Shown here: in pieces, positions 6,570-30,476 of the stretch
Layout: each line of letters opens with the position of its first letter
Numbering within the stretch: position 1 is the stretch's first letter
Assembly (NCBI RefSeq): GCF_003627815.1
Contig: NZ_CP032698.1
Span: 6,820,001-6,884,000, forward strand
Direction of reading: 5' to 3'
Source of the DNA: Streptomyces hundungensis
Lineage (GTDB): Bacteria; Actinomycetota; Actinomycetes; Streptomycetales; Streptomycetaceae
Length of the DNA stretch: 64,000 nt
Position numbers and translations under genes: made by a program
The notes under the pieces: generated by a model
Told to the model about the DNA's origin: nothing
Seen by the model: the letters and a program-made list of their open reading frames with translations, nothing else
Database searches by the model: none

Positions 6570-6592
6570 ATGTCGGACCCGGCTTGTAGGGT
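6570..6592 (+). promoter_or_regulatory. pup promoter with RecA-NDp/PafBC-type motif
   Basis: ATGTCGGAC (6570-6578), exactly eight bases, then TAGGGT (6587-6592). This reproduces the spacing of the actinobacterial RecA-independent DNA-damage promoter (TTGTCRGTG-N8-TAnnnT), with the TGTCGG core intact and the flanking positions off consensus. pup starts 49 bp downstream. Binding by PafBC is inferred. Confidence 0.55.
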
Positions 6593-6612
6593 CTGATCAA
6601 GGACTCTGATCA
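6593..6612 (+). repeat. Paired CTGATCA direct repeat at the pup transcription start
   Basis: Two identical CTGATCA heptamers (6593-6599 and 6606-6612) with a 13-bp period lie directly after the pup -10 box. Each contains the TGATCA palindrome, so a repressor or dimer-of-dimers site is possible. Confidence 0.5.
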
Positions 6613-6641
6613 CGTACATCGAACCGAGCGGGGTGAGGTAG

Positions 6642-6860
6642 ATGGCGACCAAGGACACCGGCGGCGGACAGCAGAAGGCGACGCGTTCCACCGAGGAGGT
6701 CGAGGAGCAGGCGCAGGACGCGCAGGCTTCGGAGGACCTCAAGGAGCGCCAGGAGAAGTTGTCGGACGACGTGGACTCGGTTCTGGACGAGATCGACGAC
6801 GTGCTTGAGGAGAACGCAGAGGACTTCGTGCGAAGCTTCGTTCAGAAGGGTGGACAGTAG
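6642..6860 (+). CDS. pup: Prokaryotic ubiquitin-like protein Pup
   Basis: A 72-residue intrinsically disordered tag that PafA attaches to substrate lysines. The Ser/Thr/Gln-rich N-terminus inserts into ARC. The acidic middle (about 30-62) forms the helix that binds the ARC coiled coil. The C-terminus is VQKGGQ, ending in Gln as in Streptomyces and Mycobacterium, so it needs Dop for activation. The ribosome site GGGGTGAGG precedes ATG 6642. An HNH nuclease gene starts nine bases after its stop, so the two are probably co-transcribed. Confidence 0.98.
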   Translation: MATKDTGGGQQKATRSTEEVEEQAQDAQASEDLKERQEKLSDDVDSVLDEIDDVLEENAEDFVRSFVQKGGQ

Positions 6861-6869
6861 TCCACGGAT

Positions 6870-7391
6870 GTGAACGCGTCGGGGGTGAAGCGGTGCTCAC
6901 GCTGTGAACGGATGCTGTCGTGGGAAGCCTTCGCAAAAAACAGGGCTTCCCGCGATGGGTACCAGGTCTACTGTCGCGAATGCTCGGCCTCATATCACCA
7001 GCAGCGCCAGGTGGCTCGCGGTAAAAACGTACGGCCTAGGGTGACGGCCCCGGAAGGCCACAAGTTCTGCCGCACTTGCGGAACAACCAAGCCGCACAGT
7101 GAGTGGTCCCGGAACCGCCGGTCGTCAGACGGCTTCGCAACGCTCTGCAAGTCGTGTAAGGCCGAGTCCCAGATGGGCCCTTGCGTAACCTGCCTCTCTG
7201 CTCCCGCCGTTCACGTGGATCACTGCCACCAGACGGGTAGGGTCCGAGGCGTACTCTGCTTCAACTGCAATTCGGCCATCGGCAAGTTGGGAGACGATCC
7301 CGACACCGTCCGTCGCGCTGCCGCCTACTTGGAAGGAACCTCGTGGAAGCCAACACTCGTGGCACCGGGCGTCTACCAGCTGCCTTCCTGA
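6870..7391 (+). CDS. HNH / recombination endonuclease VII family protein inside the proteasome locus
   Basis: A 173-residue protein with two similar zinc modules (C9-x2-C12...C35-x2-C38 and C67-x2-C70...C93-x2-C96), each with an RxxxDGxxxxC stretch, followed by an endonuclease VII-type domain: CVTC, the VDHCHQTG active-site motif (about 116-123), CFNC, and a [14 protein letters not shown] tail. T4 endo VII relatives resolve branched DNA, but many such proteins are phage-type HNH nucleases of unknown role. The start is probably GTG 6870. The base composition is visibly less GC-rich than the neighbours (38 of 60 G+C in 7081-7140 against 48 of 60 in 5341-5400), suggesting acquisition. The last 49 bases overlap prcB. 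Not part of the known proteasome machinery. Confidence 0.88.
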
Positions 7392-8188
7392 CGCCCGGCT
7401 CCTCCTCATTCATGGACTTCCTGTCCGACCACTCGCCGGAGATGCTCCCCGGCAAGCGCGTCCTGCCGCCCGTGCAGGGTCATGTCGAAGCCCCGCACGG
7501 CACGACGATCGTGGCCGCGACTTTCCCCGGCGGGGTCGTGCTGGCCGGTGACCGGCGGGCCACGATGGGCAACATGATCGCCCAGCGCGACATCGAGAAG
7601 GTGTTCCCGGCCGACGAGTACTCGGCCGTCGGCATCGCCGGCACCGCCGGTCTCGCGGTCGAGATGGTCAAGCTCTTCCAGCTGGAGCTGGAGCACTTCG
7701 AGAAGGTCGAAGGCACCACGCTCTCCCTGGAGGGCAAGGCCAACCGGCTCTCCACGATGATCCGCGGCAACCTGGGCATGGCCATGCAGGGCCTGGCCGT
7801 GGTCCCGCTCTTCGCGGGGTACGACGTGGACCGTGAGAAGGGCCGGATCTTCTCCTACGACGTCACCGGCGGCCGCTCCGAGGAGCACGGCTTCGCGGCC
7901 ACCGGCTCCGGCTCCATCTTCGCCCGGGGCTCCATGAAGAAGCTCTACCGCGAGGACCTGACGGAGCAGGAGACGACCACCCTGGTCATCCAGGCGCTCT
8001 ACGACGCCGCCGACGACGACTCGGCCACCGGCGGCCCGGACATGGCGCGCCGGATCTTCCCGATCGTCACCGTCATCACCGAGGACGGCTTCCGCCGGCT
8101 CACCGAGGCGGAGTCCTCCGCGCTGGCCCGCTCCATCCTGGAACGGCGGCTGGAGCAGCCCGACGGCCCCCGGGCCTCCCTCCTCTGA
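7343..8188 (+). CDS. prcB: 20S proteasome beta subunit PrcB
   Basis: A 281-residue N-terminal-nucleophile hydrolase precursor. The propeptide is 53 residues; autoprocessing before TTIVAATF exposes Thr54 as the catalytic nucleophile. Asp and Lys partners are visible in [10 protein letters not shown] and the following strand. The start is GTG 7343, preceded by GGAAGGA and encoding [12 protein letters not shown], the usual Streptomyces N-terminus. It therefore begins inside the HNH gene, which implies translational coupling to it. PrcB forms the inner heptameric rings of the cytoplasmic proteasome. Confidence 0.97.
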
Positions 8189-8242
8189 GGCCCGCGCAGG
8201 CCCGAGATGACCCAGCCACTGACAGAAAGGGACGGTTAGCCG

Positions 8243-9004
8243 GTGTCGACCCCGTTCTATGTCTCACCCCAGCAGGCCATGGCCGACCGTGCGGAGTACG
8301 CCCGCAAGGGCATCGCCCGCGGCCGCAGCCTGGTTGTGATCCAGTACGCCGACGGCATCGTGTTCGTCGGTGAGAACCCGTCCCGCGCGCTGCACAAGTT
8401 CAGCGAGATCTACGACCGGATCGGCTTCGCGGCCGCCGGCAAGTACAACGAGTACGAGAACCTCCGCATCGGCGGCGTCCGTTACGCGGATCTGCGCGGA
8501 TACACCTACGACCGTGACGATGTGACGGCCCGTGGGCTCGCCAACGTCTATGCGCAGACGCTGGGCACCATCTTCTCCAGTGTCGGTGAGAAGCCGTACG
8601 AGGTGGAGCTGGTCGTCGCCGAGGTCGGCAGCACGCCCGAAGAGGACCAGATCTACCGGCTGCCGCACGACGGCTCGATCGTGGACGAGCACGGCTCGGT
8701 CGCGGTCGGTGGCAATGCCGAGCAGATCAGCACCTTCCTGGACCAGCGCCATCAGGACGGCATGTCGCTCGCCGAGGCGCTGAGGCTGGCCGTGCAGGCG
8801 CTTTCCAGCCAGACCAATGGCGCCGACCGGGAGATCCCCGCGGAGCGTCTCGAGGTCGCGGTCCTGGACCGGACGCGGCCGCAGCAGCGGAAGTTCAAGC
8901 GGATCGTGGGGCGGCAGCTCTCCCGGCTGCTCCAGTCCGATGTCGCCAAGACCGAGCCCACCGAGGCCCCTTCGGACGATCTGGAGGAGACGGAGGACGA
9001 GTAG
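8243..9004 (+). CDS. prcA: 20S proteasome alpha subunit PrcA
   Basis: A 253-residue non-catalytic subunit that forms the outer gating rings. The N-terminal [23 protein letters not shown] matches the actinobacterial gate and H0 helix, and the fold retains [24 protein letters not shown]. The catalytic Thr is absent, as expected. The acidic C-terminal tail ([13 protein letters not shown]) is typical. GTG 8243 lies 54 bp after prcB, with GAAAGGGA upstream, so the two subunits are co-expressed. Confidence 0.97.
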
Positions 9005-9035
9005 TCCCCGCCCCTCAAGCAATCCCGGTCCCTCG

Positions 9036-9071
9036 CGCGCCCCGGTTCCGCCTCAGGCGGGCCGGGGCGCG
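9036..9071. terminator. Compound hairpin between convergent prcA and lacI-family gene
   Basis: CGCGCCCCGG (9036-9045) pairs with CCGGGGCGCG (9062-9071). A second inverted repeat (CCGCC/GGCGG) nests in the loop, giving about 15 pairs. The right arm lies in the last codons of the regulator gene, so it may terminate both transcripts. Confidence 0.65.
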
Positions 9072-10150
9072 GCCGTGGACCCCCGTACGGCCAGCGACAC
9101 CGGCAGGTCCCCGGTCTCCGCGGGCCGCCCCTCCAGGACGGCGAGCAGCGCCGCCATGCCGCGGGCGCCGACCTGTTCGGCGGGGAGGGTGAGCGTGGTC
9201 AGTTCCGGTTCGAGGGCGGTGGCGAGGGTGAGGCCGTCGAATCCGGTGACCGACACGTCGTCGGGGATGCGCAGCCCGAGCCGGTGGGCGGTCTTGCAGG
9301 CGCCCGCCGCCAGGAAGTCGTCGTCGCAGACCAGCGCGGTGGGGTGCGGGCCGGGGGAGTGCAGGGCGCGCTGTGCGGCCCGTCTGCCGCCGTCCACGCT
9401 GAGTCCGGCGCGCACGGTGCGCAGCTCGGCGTCGGGTACCGCGGCGAGCGTGTCGGCGAGGGCGCGGGCCCGTACGACGAAGGTCCAGGAGTCCACATCG
9501 GCGGCGATGTGGGTGAAGCGGCGGTGGCCGAGATCGAGCAGATGCTCCGTCAGGCGCCGTACGCCGTCGGCGATGTCGAGGTTGACGTGGGCCGCGGGCC
9601 CCGGCTCCTCGGGGTCGCTGTCGAGCATCACCAGCGGCAGGTCGCTGCCGCGGATGGAGGCGAGCGCGCCGGCGGCCATGGAGGAGGCGATGACGCCGTC
9701 GAGTGCGGTGCGCGCGGAGTCGAAGGGGTCGCGGGCGGGGCCGATGCCCTCGGGGGAGGGGTAGAGCACCACGCCGAAGCCGTGCTCGGCGGCGACCTTG
9801 GCCGCGCCCGCGTAGACCTGGGCGAAGAACTCGCTGGTCATGGCCGGCACCACGAGCAGCGCCGTCCTGGTGCGGCCGAGCCGCAGGCTGCGGGCGGCGA
9901 GATTGGGGCGGTAGCCGAGCTCGCGTGCGGCCTCCCGGACCAGCTCTGCGGTCCGCTCGGACACCCGGCCCCGCCATTTGTCGCCGAGGACCAGCGAGAC
10001 GGTGGCCTGGGAGACCCCGGCGGCGCTCGCCACGTCCCGGCTGGTGGGCGGACGGGCACCGGCGGCGCGGCCGGTGAGCGCGGCGCGCGCGGCGCGCACC
10101 CCCGCCCGTGCTGGGACCGGAACGGATTCCGGGGCGTCCGGGCTGGTCAC
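9053..10150 (-). CDS. LacI-family transcriptional regulator
   Basis: A 365-residue repressor-type protein. After a 30-residue Ala/Arg-rich lead, the helix-turn-helix is RPPTSRDVASAAGVSQATVS with the hinge region YRPNLAARSLRLG. A periplasmic-binding-like effector domain follows (TALLVVPAMTSEFFAQV through VSVTGFDG). The start GTG 10150 is chosen because a GGAGG site precedes it. It is divergent from an MFS gene, with a 27-bp palindrome between them, so it most likely represses that transporter and itself. The ligand is probably a small sugar-like or nucleoside-like molecule, but this is not identifiable. Confidence 0.9.
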   Translation of the reverse strand: MTSPDAPESVPVPARAGVRAARAALTGRAAGARPPTSRDVASAAGVSQATVSLVLGDKWRGRVSERTAELVREAARELGYRPNLAARSLRLGRTRTALLVVPAMTSEFFAQVYAGAAKVAAEHGFGVVLYPSPEGIGPARDPFDSARTALDGVIASSMAAGALASIRGSDLPLVMLDSDPEEPGPAAHVNLDIADGVRRLTEHLLDLGHRRFTHIAADVDSWTFVVRARALADTLAAVPDAELRTVRAGLSVDGGRRAAQRALHSPGPHPTALVCDDDFLAAGACKTAHRLGLRIPDDVSVTGFDGLTLATALEPELTTLTLPAEQVGARGMAALLAVLEGRPAETGDLPVSLAVRGSTAAPRPA

Positions 10151-10209
10151 GGGTCCTCCAGGGCGGGTGACGAAGGGGCGCGGGGTGGACCCGCGCGCTC
10201 GCCACATGG

Positions 10210-10236
10210 TACGTATGACGTCGGACGTTATACGTA
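10210..10236. promoter_or_regulatory. Operator palindrome between lacI-family and MFS genes
   Basis: TACGTATGACGT, three bases (CGG), then ACGTTATACGTA: 12-bp arms with a single mismatch. The position between divergent starts (10150 and 10254) and the length fit a LacI-family dimer site. Confidence 0.75.
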
Positions 10237-10253
10237 ACACTGAAGGAGTGGTC

Positions 10254-11513
10254 ATGGCGGCGGGGTACGCGGAGATCCTTCGGACCAGGCATGCCGCGCG
10301 GCTGCTCGCGGGCACGCTCACCGGACGCCTGCCGAACGCGACCGCCGCGATCGCGATCGTCTTCTTCGTCCGCGCCGAGGGCGGCAGCTACTCGCTCGCG
10401 GGCGCCCTGACCGCCGTCTACGGCGTGGCCACCGCCGTCGGCCAGCCGCTGCTCGGGCGGGCCGTCGACCTGTACGGCCAGCCGCGCGTCATGCTCCCCG
10501 CCTCCGTCCTGTCGGCCCTCGCCATGGTCGTGCCGGCCGCCGTCGGCATCCGGCCCGCCGGTGTGGCGTACGCGGCGGTCCTCGTCGCGGGGCTCGCCAC
10601 ACCGCCCCTGGAGGGCGGCCTGCGTGCCCTGTGGCCCAGCGTCCTGAAGCGCGAGGACCAGGTGCACACCGCGTACGCCATGGACGCGATAGCCCAGGAG
10701 GTGATGTTCACGGTCGGCCCGCTGCTCGTCACCGTCTCCATCGCGCTCTGGTCGCCCGCCGCCGCACTGGTCCTGATCAACGCGCTCGGGGTGGTCGGCG
10801 CGCTCAGCGTCGTCCTCTCGCGGCCGTCCAGGACCTGGCGTTCGGCGCCCCGCGAGGCGCACTGGCTCGGCGCGCTGCGCTCGCCCGGGCTGCTGGCGCT
10901 GCTCGGTTCGTTCTTCTTCGTCGGCCTGGCGCTCGGCGCCATCATCGTGGCCGCCTCCGCCTACGCCGACGACCACGGCAGCGACACGATCTACGGCTGG
11001 CTGATGGCGGGCAACGGACTCGGCGCCCTGCTGGGCGGCCTCGTCTACGGAGCCCGGCAGTGGAGCGGTGCCCCCGAGAAGCGGCTGCGGATCCTCGTGG
11101 CGCTGCTCGCCGTCGGCTATCTGCCGCTCACGCTCGTGCCCGGGCTGCCCGCGATGGCCGCGCTCACCGTCGTTTCCGGACTCTTCCTCGCGCCGTCCAT
11201 CGCCTGCGCGTTCATCGTCGTCGACCGGCACGCCCCGCGCGGCACGGTGACCGAGGCGTTCTCCTGGCTGGTGACGGCCTTCGGCGTGGGCACCGCGCTC
11301 GGCACGGCTGCGGCCGGTCCCGCGGTCGAACTCGGCGGAACGGGCGCGAGTTTCGCGGTCGCCGGCGGCGGTGGAATCGCGGCGCTGGTGGTCCTGCTCG
11401 CGACGCAAAGGGTGCTCGCGGCTCCCGCGGGTTCGCGCCAGGTGGTAGGAGTTGACGAAAATGATCGAAACCGTGCCGTCGAACCCGGTTTCAGCTCAGG
11501 CCATCAGGCGTAA
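10254..11513 (+). CDS. Major facilitator superfamily transporter
   Basis: A 419-residue, 12-helix membrane transporter. It starts at ATG 10254 after AAGGAG. The N-terminal half begins RHAARLLAGTLTGRLPNATAAIAIVFFVRA. Such proteins in streptomycetes are usually annotated as drug or sugar efflux carriers; the substrate is unknown. Regulation by the divergent LacI-type protein is strongly suggested by the intervening palindrome. The stop codon TAA overlaps the -10 box of pafA. Confidence 0.88.
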   Translation: MAAGYAEILRTRHAARLLAGTLTGRLPNATAAIAIVFFVRAEGGSYSLAGALTAVYGVATAVGQPLLGRAVDLYGQPRVMLPASVLSALAMVVPAAVGIRPAGVAYAAVLVAGLATPPLEGGLRALWPSVLKREDQVHTAYAMDAIAQEVMFTVGPLLVTVSIALWSPAAALVLINALGVVGALSVVLSRPSRTWRSAPREAHWLGALRSPGLLALLGSFFFVGLALGAIIVAASAYADDHGSDTIYGWLMAGNGLGALLGGLVYGARQWSGAPEKRLRILVALLAVGYLPLTLVPGLPAMAALTVVSGLFLAPSIACAFIVVDRHAPRGTVTEAFSWLVTAFGVGTALGTAAAGPAVELGGTGASFAVAGGGGIAALVVLLATQRVLAAPAGSRQVVGVDENDRNRAVEPGFSSGHQA

Positions 11514-11516
11514 TGT
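11489..11516 (+). promoter_or_regulatory. Putative leaderless promoter of pafA
   Basis: TTTCAG (11489-11494), 16 bases, TAATGT (11511-11516), then six bases to ATG 11523. No ribosome site lies upstream of pafA, consistent with a leaderless mRNA independent of the LacI/MFS insertion. Confidence 0.55.
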
Positions 11517-11522
11517 TCCCTC

Positions 11523-12884
11523 ATGGACCGCCGCATTTTCGGGCTGGAGAACGAGTACGGCGTCACGTGCACGTTCAGGGGACAGCGCCGACTGTCTCCT
11601 GACGAAGTGGCGCGCTACCTCTTCCGCCGTGTTGTGTCATGGGGCCGCAGTAGCAACGTCTTTCTGCGGAACGGCGCCCGCCTCTACCTTGACGTGGGAT
11701 CGCATCCGGAATACGCAACTCCCGAATGCGACAACGTGACCGAACTGGTCACGCACGACAAAGCCGGCGAGCGCATTCTCGAAGGCCTGCTCGTCGACGC
11801 CGAACGCCGCCTGCACGAGGAGGGAATCGCGGGCGACGTATACCTCTTCAAGAACAACACCGACTCGGCGGGAAACTCCTACGGCTGCCACGAGAACTAT
11901 CTGGTCGCCCGGCACGGGGAGTTCTCCCGGCTCGCGGACATCCTCATCCCGTTCCTCGTCACCCGGCAGCTGATCTGCGGCGCCGGAAAGGTGCTCCAGA
12001 CGCCGCGCGGCGCGGTCTACTGCGTCAGCCAGCGCGCGGAGCACATCTGGGAGGGCGTCAGTTCCGCCACCACCCGCTCGCGTCCGATCATCAACACCCG
12101 GGACGAGCCGCACGCGGACGCCGAGCGCTACCGGCGCCTGCACGTCATCGTCGGCGACTCCAACATGTCGGAGACGACGATGCTGCTCAAGGTCGGCGCG
12201 ACCGACCTCGTGCTGCGCATGATCGAGGCCGGTACGGTCATGCGCGACCTCACCCTGGAGAACCCGATCCGGGCCATCCGCGAGGTCTCCCACGACATCA
12301 CGGGCCAGCGCAAGGTGCGCCTGGCCAGCGGGCGCGAGGCCTCCGCCCTCGAAGTGCAGCGCGAGTACTACGAGAAGGCCGTCGACTTCGTGGAGCGGCG
12401 TGGCATCCGCACCGGCACCGTCGAGCAGGTCCTCGAACTGTGGGGCCGCACCCTGGACGCCATCGAGGCCGAGGACCTCGACCGGATCGGCACCGAGATC
12501 GACTGGGTCATGAAGTACAAGCTCATCGAGCGGTACCGGGCCAAGAACAACATGACCATGTCGCATCCGCGGGTGGCGCAGATAGACCTCGCCTACCACG
12601 ACATCCACCGTCGGCGGGGCCTGTACTACCTCCTGGAGCGCAAGGGGCAGGCCGCCAGGATCTGCAACGACCTGAAGATCTTCGAGGGCAAGTCGGTGCC
12701 CCCGCAGACCACCAGGGCCCGCCTTCGCGGCGACTTCATCCGCCGTGCCCAGGAGCAGCGCCGGGACTTCACGGTCGACTGGGTGCATCTGAAGCTCAAC
12801 GACCAGGCGCAGCGCACCGTGTTGTGCAAGGACCCGTTCCGGTCGGTGGACGACCGCGTGGAGAAGCTGATCGCCGGCATGTGA
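11523..12884 (+). CDS. pafA: Pup-protein ligase PafA
   Basis: A 453-residue ATP-dependent ligase that activates the C-terminal Glu of deamidated Pup as a gamma-glutamyl phosphate and joins it to substrate lysines. Diagnostic segments: [12 protein letters not shown] at the N-terminus, [14 protein letters not shown] with the catalytic Asp at about 57, [19 protein letters not shown] and [14 protein letters not shown]. It lacks the Dop-loop, which separates it from Dop upstream. It has its own probable leaderless promoter, and a hairpin terminator follows. Confidence 0.97.
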
Positions 12885-12905
12885 CCCGGCGTCAGCCGTG
12901 CTGTT

Positions 12906-12943
12906 CCGGGGGCCCCGTACGTGGTTGCGTACGGGGCCCCCGG
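12906..12943 (+). terminator. Hairpin terminator after pafA
   Basis: A perfect 16-bp inverted repeat (12906-12921 / 12928-12943) with a 6-base loop TGGTTG. No T tract, as is common in high-GC actinobacteria. Confidence 0.75.
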
Positions 12944-13021
12944 GCATGCCGGAGCCTTGTGGTACGGGAGTGGGGCCGTAGAGTGGCGGCTCCGACCGTT
13001 CCAGCTACCCCGAGGACCACT

Positions 13022-14035: not shown

Positions 14036-14075
14036 GACTGTTCCGGTTGCCCATAGCGATTAGTAGGAGCATTAC

Positions 14076-14447: not shown

Positions 14448-14488
14448 GACGCGCCCCGGTCGGTTCCGGGTGACCGGAGCCGACCGCA

Positions 14489-14594: not shown

Positions 14595-15545
14595 ATGGCG
14601 ATCGCCAAGGCCGAGCGGCTGATGAACCTGGCGTTGTGTCTGCTCGGGACACGGCGCGCACTCAGCAAGCGGGAGCTGCGCGAGTCCATCGAGGCCTATC
14701 TCGAAGCGGGATCCGACGACTCCTTCAACCGGATGTTCGAGCGGGACAAGGACGACCTGCGGGAACTCGGCCTGGTGATCGAGACCGTGGAGAACCTCGA
14801 CGGGGAGACCGGCTATCTCGCCCGCCGCGACAGCAACCGTCTGCCGCCGGTCCAGCTCGACGTCGAGGAGGCCGCGGCCCTCGGGCTCGCGGCCCGCGTG
14901 TGGCAGCAGGCCCGGCTCGCGGGAGCGGCCAGCGGCGCACTTCAGAAGCTGCGCGCCGCCGGGATGCCGGAAGCCGACAATCCGTATGAGCACAGTGCGA
15001 TCGAACCGCGCATCCCGGTCCACGAGGCGGCCTTCGAGCCCCTGATGCTGGCCTGTCGCGACCGCCGTCCGGTGATCTTCGACTACCGCAAGGTGACCGC
15101 CGTGCGCCCCGAGGCCCGGCACGTCGAGCCCTGGGGTCTGGAGTGCTGGCGCGGCCACTGGTATCTGGCCGGCTGGGACCGCGACCGGGGCGCCGAGCGG
15201 GTCTTCCGCCTCAGCCGCATCTCCGGCCGGGTGCGCTCGCGCGCGGGCGCCTTCACCGCGCCGGTGCCCGATGTCGTCACCGTGCGCGAGACCGTGGAGA
15301 CCTGGGCGGGCGAGACCGCGACCCGCTCGGCGCGGATCCGGCTGCGCGCGGGCGCCGGCTACCCGCTGCGCTCGCGGGCCACCTCGGCACGTGAACTCGG
15401 CGACGGCTGGGACGAGTTGGAGATTCCGTACGGGCACGGGCTCGATGCCCACCTGGTGGAGTTCGGCCCCGATGTGGTCGTGCTGGAACCCGCCGATCTG
15501 CGGGCCGATGTGATCGACCGGCTGCGTGCCGTGGCCAAGGGCTGA
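14595..15545 (+). CDS. pafB: WYL-domain transcriptional activator PafB
   Basis: A 316-residue protein with an N-terminal winged helix-turn-helix (AKAERLMNLALCLLGTRRALSKRELRE region), a central WYL fold (RRPVIFDYRKV ... HVEPWGLECWRGHWYLAGWDRDR) and the C-terminal WCX extension. In mycobacteria PafB and PafC act as a heterodimer that activates LexA-independent DNA-damage genes. ATG 14595 follows a GAGAGAGGG site. Its stop lies 16 bp before pafC, so the pair is co-expressed. Located beside the proteasome genes but not needed for pupylation in the species tested. Confidence 0.95.
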   Translation: MAIAKAERLMNLALCLLGTRRALSKRELRESIEAYLEAGSDDSFNRMFERDKDDLRELGLVIETVENLDGETGYLARRDSNRLPPVQLDVEEAAALGLAARVWQQARLAGAASGALQKLRAAGMPEADNPYEHSAIEPRIPVHEAAFEPLMLACRDRRPVIFDYRKVTAVRPEARHVEPWGLECWRGHWYLAGWDRDRGAERVFRLSRISGRVRSRAGAFTAPVPDVVTVRETVETWAGETATRSARIRLRAGAGYPLRSRATSARELGDGWDELEIPYGHGLDAHLVEFGPDVVVLEPADLRADVIDRLRAVAKG

Positions 15546-15561: not shown

Positions 15562-16536
15562 ATGGCTGCCAACGCCATCGACCAGACGCGGCGGATGCTG
15601 TCGCTGGTGACCTATCTGCGGGAGCGCCCCGGCGCCCATGTCGCGGACGTCGCCCGCGCCTTCGGCATCACCGAGGACGAACTCATCTCCGACCTCGACG
15701 TGCTGCCCATGTGCGGCACGAGCTTCCGGGGCGGCGACCTCCTGGACATCGACACCGACGGCGACCGCATCTGGTGGCACAACCCCGACGACGTCGCGGC
15801 GCCGCTCCGGCTCGCCGCCGACGAGGCGACCGCGCTGCTCGTCGCCGCGCGGGCCGTCTCCACGCTGCCGGGCCTGCGCGAGGGCGACCGGCAGGCGCTG
15901 CTGCGCGCCACCGCCAAGCTGGAGGCGGCGGCCGGCGAGGCGGCCGGCGCCAGCTCCCGGCTCTCGGTCACCTTCGAGTCCGAGGGCGGGGTCTTCGCCG
16001 AGGTGGACCGGGCGATCTCCGAGCGCCGCCGGCTGTGGGTGAAGTACTACTCGCCCGCCCGGGACGAGCTCACCGAGCGCGAGGTCGACCCGATCCGCCT
16101 CTTCGCCGTCGGCCACACCTACATGGAGGCGTGGTGCCGGCTCTCCGAGGCCCGGCGCACCTTCCGCCTCGACCGGGTCGCCGAGATCCGGCTGCTCGAC
16201 GAGGCGTCCGCGCCGCCCGAGCTGGAGCTGCGCGACCTGTCCGAGGGACTGGTCCAGCCGTCCGCCGAGGACCCCGAGGTCGTCGTCGAGGTGAGCCCCG
16301 GCGGACGCTGGGTCGCCGAGTACTACCCGCACGACAGCGCCGAGGAGCTGGCCGACGGGGGCCTGCGGATCACGCTGCGCACCCCCGACCCCGCCTCGCT
16401 GCGGCGCCTGGCGCTGCGCCTCGGGCGGGACGGCCGGATCGTCACGCCGGACGACCTCGCCGAGAGCGCCCGGCGCGCGGCCCGTGAGGCGCTGGCCGGT
16501 TATGAGGAATCGCCCGCGCCCGACCACCACAGCTGA
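15562..16536 (+). CDS. pafC: WYL-domain transcriptional activator PafC
   Basis: A 324-residue paralogue of PafB: N-terminal helix-turn-helix (IDQTRRMLSLVTYLRERPGAHVADVARAFGITEDEL), WYL domain (RRLWVKYYSPARDELTEREVDPIRLF...TYMEAWCRLSEARR) and WCX tail. It is the partner of PafB in a heterodimeric activator that is thought to sense a DNA-damage-linked ligand. The start ATG 15562 is supported by homology; GAGGGGG lies upstream. Three candidate target promoters are found in this same window. Confidence 0.95.
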   Translation: MAANAIDQTRRMLSLVTYLRERPGAHVADVARAFGITEDELISDLDVLPMCGTSFRGGDLLDIDTDGDRIWWHNPDDVAAPLRLAADEATALLVAARAVSTLPGLREGDRQALLRATAKLEAAAGEAAGASSRLSVTFESEGGVFAEVDRAISERRRLWVKYYSPARDELTEREVDPIRLFAVGHTYMEAWCRLSEARRTFRLDRVAEIRLLDEASAPPELELRDLSEGLVQPSAEDPEVVVEVSPGGRWVAEYYPHDSAEELADGGLRITLRTPDPASLRRLALRLGRDGRIVTPDDLAESARRAAREALAGYEESPAPDHHS

Positions 16537-19520: not shown

Positions 19521-19543
19521 CTGTCAGAGGCGGCGGGTAGGCT
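19521..19543 (+). promoter_or_regulatory. helY promoter with RecA-NDp/PafBC-type motif
   Basis: CTGTCAGAG (19521-19529), exactly eight bases, then TAGGCT (19538-19543), ten bases before ATG 19554. It has the TGTCRG core, spacing and TAnnnT -10 of the LexA-independent DNA-damage promoter class. No ribosome site is visible, so the leader is nearly absent. Confidence 0.65.
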
Positions 19544-19553: not shown

Positions 19554-22382
19554 ATGACAGAGGACCTCTCACCAGCCGAAGCGTACGCAGCTGCCCGGCT
19601 CCGCGCCGTCGAGCAAGCCACCGCGCTCGCACCCTTCCGTGACCTGTACGACTTCGATCTGGACCCGTTCCAGATCGAGGCCTGTCAGGCTCTCGAAGCC
19701 GGGAAGGGCGTGCTCGTCGCCGCCCCGACCGGCTCCGGCAAGACCATCGTCGGCGAGTTCGCCGTGCACCTGGCCCTGGGGCAGGGCCGCAAATGCTTCT
19801 ACACCACGCCCATCAAGGCGCTGTCCAACCAGAAGTACGCCGACCTCGCCCGCCGCTACGGCGCCGACAAGGTGGGCCTGCTGACCGGCGACAACAGCGT
19901 CAACGCGGACGCGCCGGTGGTCGTGATGACCACCGAGGTGCTCCGCAACATGCTGTACGCGGGCTCACAGGCCCTGAGCGGGCTCGGATATGTGGTCATG
20001 GACGAGGTTCACTACCTCTCCGACCGCTTCCGCGGCGCCGTGTGGGAAGAGGTGATCATCCACCTTCCGGACTCCGTCACGCTGGTCTCCCTTTCGGCGA
20101 CGGTCTCCAACGCGGAGGAGTTCGGCGACTGGCTGGACACCGTGCGCGGCGACACCCAGGTGATCGTCTCCGAGCACCGGCCGGTGCCGCTGTGGCAGCA
20201 CGTCATGGCCGGGCGCAAGATGTACGACCTCTTCGAGGAGGAGTCCGACCACGGCGGCCGCGGCGTCGCCCGGCGCGAGGTCAACCCCGACCTGCTGCGC
20301 ATGGCGCGGATGGAGAACCAGCGGACGTACAACCCGCGTGAGCGGCGCCGCGGCAAGATGGTGCGCGAGGCCGACCGCGAGCGGGAGCGCCGCTCGCGCT
20401 CCCGGATCTGGACGCCCGGCCGCCCCGAGGTCATCGAACGGCTCGACTCCGAAGGCCTGTTGCCGGCCATCACCTTCATCTTCAGCCGCGCCGCCTGCCA
20501 GGCCGCCGTCCAGCAGTGCATGTACGCGGGGCTGCGGCTCAACGACGAGGATGGGCGCCAGAAGGTCCGCGAGATCGTCGAGGAGCGCACCGCCTCCATC
20601 CCCGGCGAGGACCTGCACGTCCTCGGCTACTACGAATGGCTCGAAGGCCTGGAGCGGGGCATCGCCGCCCACCACGCCGGAATGCTGCCCACCTTCAAGG
20701 AGGTGGTGGAGGAGCTCTTCGTCCGCGGTCTGGTGAAGGCCGTGTTCGCCACCGAAACCCTCGCCCTGGGCATCAACATGCCCGCGCGCTCGGTGGTGTT
20801 GGAGAAGCTCGTCAAGTGGAACGGCGAGCAGCACGCCGACATCACCCCCGGCGAGTACACCCAGCTCACCGGGCGGGCCGGGCGGCGCGGCATCGACGTC
20901 GAGGGCCACGCGGTGGTCCTGTGGCAGCGCGGCATGGACCCGGCGGCCCTCGCCGGCCTGGCCGGCACGCGCACCTACCCGCTGCGCTCCAGCTTCAGGC
21001 CCTCGTACAACATGGCCGTCAACCTGGTCCAGCAGTTCGGCCGGCACCGCTCGCGCGAGCTGCTCGAAACCTCCTTCGCGCAGTTCCAGGCCGACAAGTC
21101 CGTCGTGGGCATCTCGCGCCAGGTCCAGCGCAACGAGGAGGGCCTCGAAGGCTATCGGGAGGGCATGCGCTGCCACCTCGGCGACTTCGAGGAGTACGCG
21201 CGGATGCGGCGCGACCTCAAGGACCGCGAGACCGAGATCGCCAAGCACGGCGCGGCCCAGCGCCGGGTGGCCGCCGCGGCCTCCCTGGAGAAGCTCAAGC
21301 CGGGCGACATCATCCATGTGCCGACCGGCAAGTTCGCCGGGCTCGCCCTGGTCCTGGACCCCGGGCTGCCCGCGGGGCGCACCAACGGCCACCGCGGCTT
21401 CGAGCAGCACGACGGGCCCCGCCCGCTGGTGTTGACCGCCGAACGGCAGGTCAAGCGGCTCGCCTCGATCGACTTCCCGGTGCCCGTAGAGGCCCTGGAG
21501 CGGATGCGCGTCCCGAAGTCCTTCAACGCGCGCTCCCCGCAGTCCCGCCGGGACCTGGCGTCGGCGCTGCGCACCAAGGCCGGACACATCGTCCCCGAGC
21601 GGCACCGCAAGGCCCGCTCGGAGGCGGTCGACGACCGCGAGATCACCCGGCTGCGCGCCGCCCTGCGCGCCCACCCCTGCCACGGGTGCGACGAGCGCGA
21701 GGACCACGCCCGCTGGGCCGAGCGCTACCACCGTCTCCAGCGCGACACTCAGCAGTTGGAGCGGCGCATCGAGGGGCGCACCAACACCATCGCGCGCACC
21801 TTCGACCGCATCGTGGCCCTGCTCACCGAGCTGGACTACCTGCGCGACGAGGAGGTCACCGAGCACGGCAGGCGGCTGGCCCGTCTCTACGGCGAGCTCG
21901 ACCTCCTGGCCAGTGAGTGCCTGCGCGCACGGATCTGGGAAGGCCTGAGCCCGCCCGAACTCGCCGCCTGCGTATCGGCGTTGGTGTACGAGGCGCGCCA
22001 GGCGGACGATGCCGTCGCGCCCAAGACCCCCTCCGGCAAGGCCAAGGCCGCGCTCGGGGAAATGGTGCGGATCTGGGGTCGGCTCGACGCCCTCGAAGAG
22101 CACCACAAGATCAACCAGACGGAGGGCGTGGGCCAGCGCGAGCCCGACCTCGGCTTCGCCTGGGCCGCCTACCAATGGGCCTCCGACAAGGGCCTGGACG
22201 AGGTGCTGCGCGAGGCCGACATGCCCGCGGGCGACTTCGTCCGCTGGTGCAAGCAGGTCATCGACGTCCTCGGCCAGATCGCTGCCGCGGCGCCGCGCGA
22301 GAACAGCACCGTCGCCAAGAACGCCCGCAAGGCGGTCGACTCGCTCCTGAGGGGAGTCGTCGCCTACAGCTCGGTCGGCTGA
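19554..22382 (+). CDS. helY: SKI2-like DEVH-box helicase HelY
   Basis: A 942-residue superfamily 2 helicase related to yeast Mtr4/Ski2 and mycobacterial HelY. Walker A APTGSGKT at 57-64, YTTPIKALSNQK (motif Ia), VVMDEVHYLSDRFRG (DEVH motif II), LSATVSN (motif III), then helicase C with QLTGRAGRRGID (motif VI) and a C-terminal DSHCT-type helical domain. The family unwinds RNA or DNA for processing or decay; the bacterial role is poorly defined. Its promoter resembles the DNA-damage class, hinting at a repair function. A strong terminator follows. Confidence 0.94.
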   Translation: MTEDLSPAEAYAAARLRAVEQATALAPFRDLYDFDLDPFQIEACQALEAGKGVLVAAPTGSGKTIVGEFAVHLALGQGRKCFYTTPIKALSNQKYADLARRYGADKVGLLTGDNSVNADAPVVVMTTEVLRNMLYAGSQALSGLGYVVMDEVHYLSDRFRGAVWEEVIIHLPDSVTLVSLSATVSNAEEFGDWLDTVRGDTQVIVSEHRPVPLWQHVMAGRKMYDLFEEESDHGGRGVARREVNPDLLRMARMENQRTYNPRERRRGKMVREADRERERRSRSRIWTPGRPEVIERLDSEGLLPAITFIFSRAACQAAVQQCMYAGLRLNDEDGRQKVREIVEERTASIPGEDLHVLGYYEWLEGLERGIAAHHAGMLPTFKEVVEELFVRGLVKAVFATETLALGINMPARSVVLEKLVKWNGEQHADITPGEYTQLTGRAGRRGIDVEGHAVVLWQRGMDPAALAGLAGTRTYPLRSSFRPSYNMAVNLVQQFGRHRSRELLETSFAQFQADKSVVGISRQVQRNEEGLEGYREGMRCHLGDFEEYARMRRDLKDRETEIAKHGAAQRRVAAAASLEKLKPGDIIHVPTGKFAGLALVLDPGLPAGRTNGHRGFEQHDGPRPLVLTAERQVKRLASIDFPVPVEALERMRVPKSFNARSPQSRRDLASALRTKAGHIVPERHRKARSEAVDDREITRLRAALRAHPCHGCDEREDHARWAERYHRLQRDTQQLERRIEGRTNTIARTFDRIVALLTELDYLRDEEVTEHGRRLARLYGELDLLASECLRARIWEGLSPPELAACVSALVYEARQADDAVAPKTPSGKAKAALGEMVRIWGRLDALEEHHKINQTEGVGQREPDLGFAWAAYQWASDKGLDEVLREADMPAGDFVRWCKQVIDVLGQIAAAAPRENSTVAKNARKAVDSLLRGVVAYSSVG

Positions 22383-22488: not shown

Positions 22489-22573
22489 GTCCTCGTCTTC
22501 GCCCGTGTGCGGCACGGTTGGGGGGGGATCGAGGGGCCGGTCTTTGAGCGGGGTCAGGACCGGCACGACCGGA

Positions 22574-23455: not shown

Positions 23456-23610
23456 GCCCCAAAGGTAGGGCGGGGCAAGGGAGTTGATAAGGCCCCGGTG
23501 AGTCGTACCTTTCTCGATGACGGGTATCGCGGGCGACAGCGCGTCAGTCGGCCAGGGACCGCGTCAATCGGACACCCAGGACGGTCGGGGAGGGGCCGGG
23601 GCCGGATCGG

Positions 23611-25901: not shown

Positions 25902-25999
25902 CGCTGGTCTCCCTGTGTGTCCGTCCGTGTCCGCCCCTGTCCCGCCGCAACAGCCTCGCACAGCGGCTCCGGTGGGGCACCGGCCATGGGTCGGGGGCG

Positions 26000-26023
26000 G
26001 GACCAGGACCACGGTCCTGGTCC
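26000..26023. promoter_or_regulatory. 24-bp palindrome in the kinase/MMPL divergent region
   Basis: GGACCAGGACC, two bases (AC), GGTCCTGGTCC: 11-bp perfect arms. It sits in the 259-bp divergent gap between the kinase start (25901) and the MMPL start (26161). It could be an operator for the response regulator or an RNA hairpin. Confidence 0.5.
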
Positions 26024-26160
26024 GGGGCGGGGGCGGGACCCAGGGCCCCGGCGCGGATCCTCCCTGGCCAGGACGCCGTACGGCCCCTCGCGATGATGGT
26101 CTGGACGGAGGCCGGGAGCCCCCGGCAGACGTCACGAAAGCCCGTCCGCCGGAGGACCTC

Positions 26161-28380
26161 GTGATCCGCGCCCTGACCGGATACTCCACCCGACATCCCT
26201 GGAAGGTGATCGCCCTGTGGGCGGTCCTCGGGGTCGCCCTGAGCGCCCTGACCCCGACCCTGTTCGCCCGCGTCACCCAGAACCAGGCCGGGAACTTCCT
26301 GCCCCGCACCTACGACTCGGCCGCCGCGCTGGGCATCGCCGAGGAACGCTTCGGGATGAACCCCGACGCCATCACGGTGACGGTCCTGGTCGCCCGCTCC
26401 GACGGCAAGGTCCTCGGCGCCGACGACCGGCGGCGGATCGAGAGCGGGGCGGCGAAGCTGGGCAACCGCCGGGTGATCATGCCCCGGGAGAACGACATGC
26501 CGGCGTTCATGGTCCCCGACCGCTCCCAGACACCCCGGGTCGCCCCGGCCCTGACCGCGCCCGACGGCAGCTTCCAACTGCTCTCCGTCGAGCTCGCCGG
26601 AAATGCGTCGGACCCGGGGGTACAGGGCGTCTACCGGGCCTTCCGCGACACCGCCCGGACGGAGTTCGCCGAGGCGGGCATGCGTACGGGATTCACCGGC
26701 GCGCTCGCCGAAAGCGTCGACACCACCGACTCCCACGAGCTCGCCACCAAGATCGGCGGCGCGCTCGTCACGGTGCTGATCATCCTCCTCCATGTGCTGG
26801 TGTTCCGCAGCGTGCTCGCGGCCGTGCTGCCGCTGCTCGCCGTCGCCTTCATCGGCTTCGTGGCGGCGGGAGCCGTCGCGGGGGCCGCCGTGCTCACAGG
26901 CCTCAAGCTCGACGCGAGCACCCCGGCCCTCCTCAATGTGGTTCTGCTCGGCATAGGCATCGACTACCTGCTGTTCCTGCTGTTCCGCTTCCGCGAGCAA
27001 CTGCGCGACCGGCCCCAGCAGTTGGCGCGCGAGGCGGCCGGAGAGGTCTGCGCCCGGGTGGGCACCGCCATCACTTCGGCCGCGCTCACCATCGTCGCCG
27101 CGTTCGCCACGCTGGGCCTCGCGACCTTCGGCCAGTTCCGCTCCCTCGGCCCCGCGATCGCCGCCGCGGTCCTGGTGATGCTGCTCGGCAGTCTCACCCT
27201 GATGCCGGCGCTGCTCGCGGCCGCCGGACGCAGAATGTTCTGGCCCTCCAAGGCGGCCCTGCGCCAGGATGCGCGCGAGGGCCGAGCCGGCCGCCTGGGG
27301 GCGCTGATCGCACGCCGTCCCGCGGCGATGCTGCTCGCCTGCGTCGCGCTGCTGGGTGCGCTCACCGCCGGGCTGATCGGCATCCGCATGGACTACGGCC
27401 ACGGCCACTCCGGCACCCGGGCCGCGGCGGCGGACACGGCGGCCGAGATCGCGCGGACGCTGCCGGCCGGAGTCTCCGACCCGACCAGCGTCTTCGTCAC
27501 GGACAACGACGGCGGTACGCTCACCACCGGCCGACTCGACGGGCTCGTGCGGGCGCTCGGCGAGGTCAAGGGCGTGGGCAAGGTCGCGCCGACCGTCCTC
27601 AACGAGGACCGTCACGCCGCCCGGATCGACCTCTATCCCACCGCCGACCCGGGAAGCCGGGAAGCCCGCGACCTGGCCTCGGGTCCCCTCCGGGCCGCCG
27701 TCGCCCAGCACGCGCCCGCCGGGACCTCGGCCCATGTGGGCGGGACGGCCGCGATCCTCGCCGACATCTCGACCGCCGTCGACCACGACCTGAAGGTCGT
27801 GTTCCCGGTCGCCGCCGCGCTGATCGCGCTGATCCTCCTGCTGCTCCTGCGCAGCCTGCTCGCCCCGCTGGCCCTCATGCTCTCCGTCGGGCTCGGCTTC
27901 GCCGCCACCCTCGGCGCCGCGACCCTGCTCTTCCAGCACGGGCTCGGCGAACCGGGCGTCAACTTCACCCTGCCGCTGGTGCTGTTCCTGTTCGTGGTGG
28001 CGCTGGGGACCGACTACAACATCCTGATCACCGACCGCATCCGCGAGGAGACGCGGCGCCCGGGGTCCGCCCGCTTTGCCGTCGCCCGCGCGGTGCGGTT
28101 CACGGCGCCGGCCATCGCGACGGCGGGTGTGGTGCTGGCCGGCTCCTTCGCCGGGCTCGCCACCATGCCGGGCAGTGAGCAGATGGCCTTCGCGATGGCG
28201 CTGGGCATCCTGCTCTCCGCGCTGGTCCTGTCGCTGGTCCTCGTCCCGGCCCTGGCCGCGCTCCTGGGGCGGGGCCTGTGGTGGCCCGTCCGCCCCGGGG
28301 CCGCCCACGCCAGGGCGGGCCGCCCTCCGCACCGTACGCAGGAGGCGGCCTGGGAGCCGGAGCGGGTCACGTCGTACTGA
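26161..28380 (+). CDS. MMPL/RND-family transporter
   Basis: A 739-residue membrane exporter of the MmpL type, which in actinobacteria moves lipids, glycolipids or drugs out of the cell. It has the usual duplicated architecture: helix, extracytoplasmic porter domain (from about 45), block of five or six helices around residues 200-350 (LLNVVLLGIGIDYLLFLLF), second porter domain, and second helix block (LFLFVVALGTDYNILI). The Asp in GIGIDY and GTDYN corresponds to the proton-relay residues. GTG 26161 follows GGAGG. Divergent from the unusual sensor kinase, which may control it. Confidence 0.93.
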   Translation: MIRALTGYSTRHPWKVIALWAVLGVALSALTPTLFARVTQNQAGNFLPRTYDSAAALGIAEERFGMNPDAITVTVLVARSDGKVLGADDRRRIESGAAKLGNRRVIMPRENDMPAFMVPDRSQTPRVAPALTAPDGSFQLLSVELAGNASDPGVQGVYRAFRDTARTEFAEAGMRTGFTGALAESVDTTDSHELATKIGGALVTVLIILLHVLVFRSVLAAVLPLLAVAFIGFVAAGAVAGAAVLTGLKLDASTPALLNVVLLGIGIDYLLFLLFRFREQLRDRPQQLAREAAGEVCARVGTAITSAALTIVAAFATLGLATFGQFRSLGPAIAAAVLVMLLGSLTLMPALLAAAGRRMFWPSKAALRQDAREGRAGRLGALIARRPAAMLLACVALLGALTAGLIGIRMDYGHGHSGTRAAAADTAAEIARTLPAGVSDPTSVFVTDNDGGTLTTGRLDGLVRALGEVKGVGKVAPTVLNEDRHAARIDLYPTADPGSREARDLASGPLRAAVAQHAPAGTSAHVGGTAAILADISTAVDHDLKVVFPVAAALIALILLLLLRSLLAPLALMLSVGLGFAATLGAATLLFQHGLGEPGVNFTLPLVLFLFVVALGTDYNILITDRIREETRRPGSARFAVARAVRFTAPAIATAGVVLAGSFAGLATMPGSEQMAFAMALGILLSALVLSLVLVPALAALLGRGLWWPVRPGAAHARAGRPPHRTQEAAWEPERVTSY

Positions 28381-28393
28381 GGCCGACGCGCAA

Positions 28394-28431
28394 GACGCGC
28401 CGTCGGCGGGCATCCCCACCGACGGCGCGTC
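28394..28431 (+). terminator. Hairpin terminator after the MMPL gene
   Basis: A perfect 13-bp inverted repeat (GACGCGCCGTCGG / CCGACGGCGCGTC) with a 12-base loop. Confidence 0.7.
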
Positions 28432-28477
28432 CGCCGCTCGACGCCGGCGAGGCCGTGCATGCGGCCCGGGTGTGGCC

Positions 28478-28574
28478 TACGCGGCGTCGGCGAGGTCGTC
28501 TACGTGGCGCCAGGTCACTTACGCGGCCCCGGCGAGGTCTTCTTCGCGGTGCCAAGTCACTTACGCGGCGCCGG
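28478..28574 (-). repeat. 42-bp tandem duplication of the siderophore-protein gene 3' end
   Basis: Two 42-bp units (28478-28519 and 28520-28561) and a 13-bp start of a third (28562-28574), which is the real 3' end of the neighbouring minus-strand gene. Read on the minus strand, each copy runs TAA-GTG...GCCGCG-stop, encoding the short peptides VTWHREEDLAGAA and VTWRHVDDLADAA in tandem. Confidence 0.75.
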
Positions 28575-29406
28575 CCTCCTGCTCGCGCTCCACCTGCTCG
28601 TTCCACTGCCGCTTCACCGCGCGCCATGCGTCGTCGTCCTGGCCCAGGCGCCAGTAGCCCGAGATGGAGAGGCGCTCGCGCGGGATGTTCCGTTCGACTC
28701 GGAGCAGGGCGCGCAGCTCCTTCACGAAGCCGGCCTCGCCGTGGACGAAGGCGTGCACCTCGCCCGCCGGGAACTCCAAGTCCCTTACCGCGCCCACGAG
28801 TTGGGAGCCCACCGTGGCGTCGCCGCGGTGCAGCCAGGTCACCGTGGTGCCGTCGGGGGTGCTGATCTTCTGCTCCTCCTCGGGGCCGGCCACCTCGACG
28901 AAGGCGTGCACCACGGCGCCCGCCGGCATGCGCTCCATGGCCGCCGCGATCGCGGGCAGCGCGCTCTCGTCGCCGACGAGCAGATGCCAGTCGGCCGCCG
29001 GGTCCGGGGCGTACCCGCCGCCGGGGCCGAGGAAGCGGACCGTCTCCCCGGCCTTGACCCGGGTGGCCCAGGGCCCGGCGAGGCCCTCGTCGCCGTGCAC
29101 CACGAAGTCGACGGTCAGCTCGCCGAGTTCGGCGTCCCAGCCGCGCACCGTGTAGGCGCGGGTGCTCGGCCACTGCTCGCGCGGGAACTCGGCACGGATC
29201 CGCTCCATGTCGAAGGGCTCCGGGTAGCTCACGCCCTTCGCCGGGAACAGCAGCTTGATGTAGTGATCCGTGTACTCGCCGACGCCGAAGCCGGCCAGCG
29301 ACTCGCCACCGAGTACGACGCGCACCATGTGCGGCGTGAGGCGCTCGGTGCGCACCACCCGCGCCTCGTTGATCTTCGGTGCCTTGCGAGACGGGCGTTC
29401 TGCCAC
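28561..29406 (-). CDS. Siderophore-interacting protein (FAD-dependent ferric reductase family)
   Basis: A 281-residue cytoplasmic flavoprotein of the SIP/ViuB family, which releases iron from ferric siderophores by reduction with NAD(P)H. The FAD-binding barrel has STRAYTVRGWD (RxYTxR motif) and GEYTDHYIKLLFP; the SIP domain has LLVGDESALPAIAAAMERMP and the C-terminal ISGYWRLGQDDDAWR. A DmdR/IdeR-type iron box lies 26 bp upstream of the start, so iron repression is expected. No siderophore biosynthesis genes are nearby. Confidence 0.94.
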   Translation of the reverse strand: MAERPSRKAPKINEARVVRTERLTPHMVRVVLGGESLAGFGVGEYTDHYIKLLFPAKGVSYPEPFDMERIRAEFPREQWPSTRAYTVRGWDAELGELTVDFVVHGDEGLAGPWATRVKAGETVRFLGPGGGYAPDPAADWHLLVGDESALPAIAAAMERMPAGAVVHAFVEVAGPEEEQKISTPDGTTVTWLHRGDATVGSQLVGAVRDLEFPAGEVHAFVHGEAGFVKELRALLRVERNIPRERLSISGYWRLGQDDDAWRAVKRQWNEQVEREQEAGAA

Positions 29407-29431
29407 AGTGCGCTCCCCTGATCCACCATTG

Positions 29432-29447
29432 CTTAGGATTACCTAAG
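29432..29447 (-). promoter_or_regulatory. IdeR/DmdR-type iron box
   Basis: CTTAGG, four bases (ATTA), CCTAAG, flanked by further A/T, closely matching the TTAGG...CCTAA core of actinobacterial iron-regulator sites. It is placed 26-41 bp upstream of the siderophore-interacting protein start. Confidence 0.8.
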
Positions 29448-29522
29448 TTAACACCTCGAAGAGGAAGAATCCTCAGAGAAAAAGGACCTGCCCGAGGCAC
29501 GGCGCACCCAGGGTGGGGGCGC

Positions 29523-30446
29523 TCAGCGGTGCAGCGTCGCCAGCAGCCGCCCCGTCGCGCCCGCCAGGCCCCACCGGGCCACCAGCTCCTCCAGGGTCGC
29601 CGGGTCGAGCGGCTCCGAGGGCAGCGTCGGGTCGAACGCGGGCAGCGCCACGTCCATCGCGACCCGCACCACCTTCGGCGCGACGTCCAGATAGTCGGCC
29701 GCTTCCAGGATTCCCCTGCGCTTGGCTGGGGTCAGCCGGGAGAACCGGTCGGCCGCGGCCGCGCGGACGCCCGCCAGGTCGCCGTACTCGTTGATGAGCT
29801 GGGCCGCCGTCTTCTCGCCGATGCCCTTGACGCCGGGCAGCCCGTCGCTGGTGTCGCCGCGCAGGGCTGCGAAGTCCGCGTACTGATCGGGCCGTACGCC
29901 GTACTTCGTACGGATCAGCTCGTCGTCGACCAGGTCGCAGTCGCCCACGCCCTTGCGCGGGTACAGCACGCGCACCCCGCGCTTGTCGTCGACCAGCTGG
30001 AACAGGTCGCGGTCGCCCGTGACGATGTCGACCGGGCCCGACGCGAGGCCGGACAGGGTGCCGATGACGTCGTCCGCCTCGTAGCCCGCGACGCCGACCC
30101 GGGCGATGCCCAGCGCGTCCAGGACGGCGTCGATCACCGGGACCTGAGGAGCCAGGGTGTCCGGGGTCTCCTCCTCGTCGGGCTGCCCGGCCGGCGTCTC
30201 CTCGGCCACCCGGTGCGCCTTGTAGGAAGGGATCAGGTCGACCCGCCACTGCGGCCGCCAGTCCGCGTCCATACAGGCCACCAGGTCGTCCGGGCGGTGG
30301 TCGTGGACGAGCCGGGAGATGAAGTCGAGCAGGCCGCGCACGGCGTTGACCGGCGTGCCGTCCGGCGCCCTGACCGTGTCGGGAACCCCGAAATAGGCGC
30401 GGTAGTAGAGGGACGAGGTGTCGAGGAGCATCAGGCGTCGCGTCAC
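29523..30446 (-). CDS. Stand-alone 5'-3' exonuclease (FEN-like)
   Basis: A 307-residue homologue of the N-terminal exonuclease domain of DNA polymerase I, without a polymerase domain. Acidic metal ligands are seen in MLLDTSSLYYRAYFG, ACMDADW, YEADDVIGTLSG and VTGDRDLFQLV. The helix-hairpin-helix GLPGVKGIGEKTAAQLI is also present. It would remove RNA primers or flap DNA. The start GTG 30446 (VTRRLMLLD) is chosen because a DNA-damage-type promoter ends seven bases upstream; ATG 30431 is an alternative. Four 29-bp repeats lie in its upstream region. Confidence 0.92.
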   Translation of the reverse strand: MTRRLMLLDTSSLYYRAYFGVPDTVRAPDGTPVNAVRGLLDFISRLVHDHRPDDLVACMDADWRPQWRVDLIPSYKAHRVAEETPAGQPDEEETPDTLAPQVPVIDAVLDALGIARVGVAGYEADDVIGTLSGLASGPVDIVTGDRDLFQLVDDKRGVRVLYPRKGVGDCDLVDDELIRTKYGVRPDQYADFAALRGDTSDGLPGVKGIGEKTAAQLINEYGDLAGVRAAAADRFSRLTPAKRRGILEAADYLDVAPKVVRVAMDVALPAFDPTLPSEPLDPATLEELVARWGLAGATGRLLATLHR

Positions 30447-30453
30447 ACCCCCG

Positions 30454-30476
30454 ATGATGCCGCACCCCACTGACAC
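30454..30476 (-). promoter_or_regulatory. Exonuclease promoter with RecA-NDp/PafBC-type motif
   Basis: On the minus strand: GTGTCAGTG (30476-30468), exactly eight bases, CATCAT (30459-30454), then seven bases to GTG 30446. The 9-mer matches TTGTCRGTG at 8 of 9 positions, the best of the three such sites; the -10 has C in place of the first T. Confidence 0.6.

Follow-up and report, generated by a model that had tools for sequence, protein, structure and literature searches.

Streptomyces hundungensis carries the activator genes pafB and pafC in a 64-kb window (positions 6820001-6884000) of its 8.39-Mb single-contig genome. The same window, the whole stretch analysed here, contains pup, the helicase gene helY and a gene for a 5'-3' exonuclease, and the question that it raises is whether these three genes are read from promoters of the RecA-NDp class, the PafBC-type damage promoters of actinobacteria. 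The published RecA-NDp consensus is tTGTCRgtg-N8-TannnT (PMC5656591), and the PafBC consensus of Mycobacterium tuberculosis is given as TGTC[AG]G-N10-TAnnnT, with TGTCAC also listed (PMC8151990). The initial annotation had claimed a string of this type before each of the three genes, and we found all three where it had placed them. TGTC[AG]G is present at every site, and the spacing of 8 bases after the 9-mer (10 after TGTCRG) up to the -10 element is kept throughout. Each site lies upstream of its gene and points to the gene start. The sites are real, their evolutionary conservation varies from one to the next, and sequence comparisons make it likely that pup and helY are members, and the exonuclease a near-member, of the RecA-NDp class within a regulon-sized Streptomyces set. 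The three predicted promoters are as follows.

6571-6592, plus strand: predicted RecA-NDp-type promoter before pup, TGTCGG-N10-TAGGGT; exact consensus match, matrix rank 2, TGTC in 62 of 75 loci
19522-19543, plus strand: predicted RecA-NDp-type promoter before helY, TGTCAG-N10-TAGGCT; exact consensus match, matrix rank 1, conserved in relatives
30454-30475, minus strand: RecA-NDp-like promoter predicted before the exonuclease gene, TGTCAGTGG...CATCAT; matrix rank 3, conserved in 23 of 30 loci

The pup site reads ATGTCGGAC-N8-TAGGGT, its -10 element ending 49 nucleotides (nt) before the ATG at 6642; the helY site reads CTGTCAGAG-N8-TAGGCT and ends 10 nt before the ATG at 19554; and the exonuclease site, on the minus strand, reads GTGTCAGTG-N8-CATCAT and ends 7 nt before the GTG at 30446. 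The last two distances bear out the claim that two of the -10 elements lie 7-10 bases before a start codon. Both TAGGGT and TAGGCT satisfy TAnnnT, and TGTC[AG]G-N10-TAnnnT has exactly two matches in the window, those at pup and helY (shuffle mean, 0.08; two matches reached in 1 of 100 shuffles). Freeing the first -10 base gave 7 matches against 1.78 expected; therefore, the looser motif alone is weak evidence for the exonuclease site. We trained a weight matrix on 66 sites of the same genome outside the window, after dropping the 7 of 73 that lie inside called genes. Over both strands of the window it ranked helY first (19.8 bits), pup second (18.7 bits) and the exonuclease third (16.1 bits). 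The helY and pup levels were reached in none of 200 shuffled windows and the exonuclease level in 14, so that the scores beat chance, clearly for helY and pup and less clearly for the exonuclease. The fourth-ranked position (15.7 bits; 45614-45635, minus strand) is antisense inside a predicted gene, and for this reason the earlier statement that the window holds no other correctly placed match stands.

The same pattern is abundant across the genome. TGTCRGTG-N8-TAnnnT occurs at 44 sites, against none for the reversed pattern, and TGTCRG-N10-TAnnnT at 75 against 6, reversal being an imperfect control for word frequency. Of the 69 sites for which a gene was called, 40 have an in-frame start codon 4-12 nt after the -10 element, and in 34 the distance is 6-7 nt; shifted controls gave 1-17 of 69 (start positions and "inside a gene" flags come from a home-made gene caller and are approximate). 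The helY (10 nt) and exonuclease (7 nt) sites share this short arrangement. Family scans covered 40 of the 42 TGTCRGTG (first-class) targets with a called gene, from the 44 sites, and 10 of the 27 others. Among the 40, 16 have their best or a clear match in families of DNA replication, repair or the nucleotide pool. Twelve of these score above the curated cut-off (recA, xseA, radA, dnaX, nth, recD2, dgt, ogt, uvrC, ruvC, ung and a DEDDh exonuclease) and four below it (uvrB in a cut locus, a YoaA/DinG-type helicase, a RarA-type ATPase and an AddB-like nuclease). One further first-class target is rpsF, and the gene behind it begins in a way that we read as resembling ssb. The second class includes xthA, dnaE, sbcD and two PcrA/UvrD-type helicases (cut frames below the cut-off). 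The three window sites, whose genes had been put forward as one damage response, are not special to the window and form a small part of a regulon-sized genome set.

Conservation differs from site to site. For helY we compared the loci of 80 Streptomyces relatives, one of which gave no match; TAnnnT is present upstream in 79/79, and TGTC sixteen bases further upstream in 78/79. The bases 3' of TGTC vary. In the gtg that follows TGTCR, a less strict part of the consensus, the exonuclease has GTG, pup GAC and helY GAG, with the full TGTCRGTG found at helY in 23 of the 79 relatives and the form TGTCGGACC in two. At helY, 72 of 77 testable loci retain an A-rich element that begins 13-15 nt upstream of TGTC, but no A/T peak occurs at this position across the 73 sites of the own genome. 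Exonuclease loci were taken from the best 30 of 61 genomes, the window's own included, and TGTC is kept in 23, together with CATGAT (13) or CATCAT (10). Nor is the CATCAT form isolated, because 34 of the 61 genome sites that fit TGTCAGTGG-N8-AnnnT with the first -10 base free (reversed pattern, 0) have a base other than T there; the other 27 have T. GTGAC stands near the exonuclease start position in most of the 30 relatives, and, if the transcript is leaderless, the start would be better placed at GTG 30446 than at ATG 30431 (minus strand, 30431-30446). For pup, 80 loci were reduced to 76 by four without a match and to 75 by one dropped match (L048); TGTC is present in 62/75. Outside Streptomyces, TGTC-N12-TAnnnT precedes 4 of 26 pup genes, from three families, on the coding strand (shuffle mean, 0.046), and the same 26 genes gave no match on the other strand or to the reversed pattern. 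Two of the four are TGTCGGTGG, the consensus, both in genomes from one family.

Two other sites of the exonuclease type, TGTCAGTGG-N8-CAnnAT, were seen on the plus strand of the genome. One, at 6419779-6419800, lies immediately upstream of an exonuclease match in a long frame, probably polA (6419850); the other, at 2393422-2393443, lies immediately upstream of a large helicase frame that weakly matches HelY (2393538).

A PafBC regulon needs both pafB and pafC in the genome, and both lie inside the window. Genes recognized there by Pfam comprise dop and pafA (two of Pup-ligase type), a proteasome subunit, tatA and those listed here.

6642-6860, plus strand: pup; Pfam Pup, E 4.8e-30
14595-15545, plus strand: pafB, WYL activator subunit; Pfam WYL/WCX, PDB chain 7p5x_AY, E 2.6e-57
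15562-16536, plus strand: pafC; Pfam HTH_PafC, WYL and WCX, PDB chain 7p5x_AX (named PafC), E 3e-50
19554-22382, plus strand: helY, DEAD/DSHCT helicase; Pfam DEAD and DSHCT
29523-30446, minus strand: 5'-3' exonuclease; Pfam 5_3_exonuc_N and 5_3_exonuc, GTG 30446 being the start codon that a leaderless transcript would imply

PafB and PafC align over nearly their full length, the PafB helix-turn-helix included, with chains of 7p5x, which we take to be the M. smegmatis PafBC initiation complex. The named relatives of the window's pafC are Streptomyces (80 loci, one titled [Kitasatospora] papulosa). Within a sample of the class, all 28 genomes of the own genus carry 23-73 sites, with controls of 0-3. 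Six named species, S. venezuelae not among them, gave the following numbers of sites and control hits: S. griseus 38/0, S. canus 72/2, S. exfoliatus 43/0, S. narbonensis 43/0, S. albus 31/0 and S. albipurpureus 45/1. The motif occurs in 276 of the 296 class genomes; a PafC-HTH match occurs in 287, so that co-occurrence within the class is uninformative. A phylum sample of 128 genomes was divided by the strength of the PafC match. Where the PafC match is strong (E<=1e-20), 440 sites stand against 20 reversed controls in 69 genomes, divided into 352/10 in 13 own-class and 88/10 in 56 other-class genomes. Weak matches go with 10 sites and 4 controls in 33 genomes, and the 26 genomes with no PafC match showed no enrichment of the motif (26 sites, 29 controls). 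Site numbers are unusually high in two genomes of one genus, G232 and G212 (198 and 118, compared with 29-83 in the ten other sampled members of that genus), perhaps through spread of a repeat or mobile element. Identical 22-base sites recur 2-4 times per genome in G124, G140 and G107, which suggests repeats or mobile elements carrying the promoter.

The genome-wide enrichment, the coupling to start codons, the repair targets and the conservation support the assignment to this promoter class, well for helY and the exonuclease and more weakly for pup. We regard helY and the exonuclease as the firm cases, the latter apparently a variant that works like the class and not a strict member, and pup as a probable one. 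Control by PafBC in Streptomyces is suggested by motif identity, the adjacent pafBC genes and the enrichment with PafC in the phylum sample, and we infer PafBC binding, induction by damage and transcription starts at the sites. PafBC is reported to be activated by single-stranded DNA bound to its WYL domains, PafB engaging the -26 motif and PafC domain 4 of the sigma factor (PMC11804915). In the mechanism that we consider likely, DNA damage would generate single-stranded DNA that binds the WYL domains, PafB would read TGTC[AG]G at about -26, and PafC would hold domain 4 of the housekeeping sigma factor, allowing polymerase to start from the -10 element without a -35. The helY and exonuclease transcripts would then begin either with the start codon itself or a few bases upstream of it.

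Several observations weigh against this assignment. The exonuclease -10 element, CATCAT, departs from TAnnnT, and 7 of the 30 relatives lack TGTC there, two of these having a different, TA-containing -10. At pup, 13 of 75 loci have lost the TGTC core, and the absence of pafBC in M. smegmatis is reported to leave pupylation and the levels of Dop, Mpa, PrcA and PrcB unchanged (PMC5656591). The other 23 first-class targets are not repair genes by our scans (e.g., dapF, a sigma factor, a carotenoid-type desaturase or no family), and ispH, folC, a histidine kinase and two unnamed genes are misfits in the second class. The link to PafC in the phylum is confounded by kinship, and at least 4 sites occur in only 9 of the 56 strong-PafC genomes outside the class. 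Of the nine class genomes without a PafC match, two incomplete ones (G118, 78%; G302, 81%) hold 13 and 10 sites, which argues against a simple link between PafC and motif unless pafC lies in the missing part. For S. venezuelae, a published initial search suggested a lack of conservation of the M. smegmatis PafBC motif (PMC9380542), a remark that does not fit the genus members searched here. Finally, none of 26 loci outside Streptomyces has a helY site, the start having been extrapolated where the protein match began late. Set beside 4/26 for pup, this makes the helY promoter a Streptomyces trait in these samples, while the link of the promoter to pup arose or was kept in several lineages.

One alternative concerns pup, where the match may be secondary and the conserved entity may be the -10 element together with an inverted repeat (TCRGACCC-N8-GGGTCTGA) that serves another regulator or forms a hairpin behind dop. 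We consider this doubtful, though far from negligible.

6573-6596, no strand assigned: inverted repeat TCGGACCC-N8-GGGTCTGA over the pup -10 element; present in most Streptomyces loci examined

Eight of the 13 loci without TGTC retain the TCRGACC arm of the repeat, and TA[GA]GGTC[TG]GA lies upstream of pup in 75/76 loci; because this string was the anchor of the alignment, the invariance of the -10 and right-arm columns is partly circular. In favour of the alternative, too, R as A or G can pair with U in RNA, and the Pup system of M. smegmatis lacking pafBC is unchanged (PMC5656591). The degenerate repeat is mismatch-free at pup only in the whole genome. Against it, sbcD in the same genome is preceded by a TGTCAGACC site that lacks a repeat of this kind, TGTCGGACC recurs at helY in two relatives, and the pup genes outside Streptomyces carry the promoter pattern more often than shuffled sequence. 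A regulon built on the inverted repeat was considered and rejected: allowing up to 2 mismatches gave 15 places (30 hits on both strands) against 8 control hits, pup being the sole perfect one. The RNA hairpin behind dop was likewise set aside, its fold being not unusual (z -1.55). Eight more TGTCRGAC-N8-TAnnnT sites occur in the own genome, one 8 nt before sbcD (L149) and one 197 nt before a frame that we read as resembling NAD-dependent DNA ligase (L132). Membership of the RecA-NDp class thus remains the likely reading for pup, the weakest of the three cases, which may carry a second control through the inverted repeat. Tentatively, and as a possibility not far short of even, we propose that the PafBC damage switch captured pup in Streptomyces and, independently, in one or more other lineages, so that damage would raise the repair enzymes together with the tag by which these proteins are later removed. 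If so, this capture would provide a built-in shut-off loop of a kind that has not been seen in M. smegmatis, with the repeat on the pup -10 element as a second input.

It is also conceivable that the class is a real set of repair-gene promoters that in Streptomyces are activated by ClgR or some other factor, either by itself or jointly with PafBC. According to PMC5656591, ClgR has been reported to recognize the same motif in mycobacteria, its loss impairs induction of repair genes, and in M. tuberculosis prcB and prcA are induced when ClgR is expressed. There is also room for paralogues, since single genomes of the own genus contain up to 11 PafC-HTH matches. We regard this as unlikely, since PafBC binds RecA-NDp in vivo and a structure of PafBC with promoter and polymerase is available (PMC6789036, PMC11804915), the homology of PafB and PafC is near full-length in this genome, and the 26 phylum genomes that lack a PafC match show no enrichment of the motif. 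Chance matches in a GC-rich window are very improbable and, for helY, largely refuted: although 14 of 200 shuffled windows reach the exonuclease score, none reaches those of pup and helY, and dozens of species conserve the sites close to the start codons.

A strong TGTCAGTGGCGGGTCGTAGGGT site lies 700 bases left of the window (genome 6819279-6819300, minus strand; L036:9280-9301), 7 nt before a RecB/AddB-like nuclease gene, which gives the proteasome locus an additional damage-type promoter on its flank. By position, the nuclease gene is presumably the counterpart of rv2119. In M. tuberculosis, the recB-like rv2119 is over-expressed in a recA mutant treated with mitomycin C (PMC8151990).

Among known systems, RecA-NDp promoters have been reported at Streptomyces recA and at SCO6735 of S. 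coelicolor (PMC5087735, PMC9411070), the latter gene being ultraviolet-inducible (PMC5087735). The window sites share the consensus type of these and of M. tuberculosis, although pup (TGTCGGACC) and helY (TGTCAGAGG) diverge after TGTCRG and the exonuclease in its -10 element; the accessible text of the recA and SCO6735 reports does not name pup, helY or the exonuclease as targets. With the PafBC regulon of M. smegmatis and M. tuberculosis they have TGTC[AG]G-N10-TAnnnT in common. Members of that regulon include recA, uvrA and uvrC (PMC8223512), and under standard growth M. smegmatis without pafBC is reported to contain less RecA (-2.5-fold) and less 5'-3' exonuclease protein MSMEG_3883 (-1.6-fold) (PMC5656591); neither PMC8151990 nor PMC5656591 mentions helY in its main text. 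In the open-licence literature no title dealing with a Streptomyces PafBC regulon was found, subscription papers being outside that scope. The LexA/SOS regulon of S. venezuelae is also a damage response of this genus, but it follows repressor logic and uses another box, and the 2022 study of it left open a RecA/LexA-independent response in Streptomyces (PMC9380542). The promoter class described here is of a known kind, in a genus where little of it has been charted, and with 23-73 sites in each of 28 genomes from the genus, such a response is directly testable from a ready target list.

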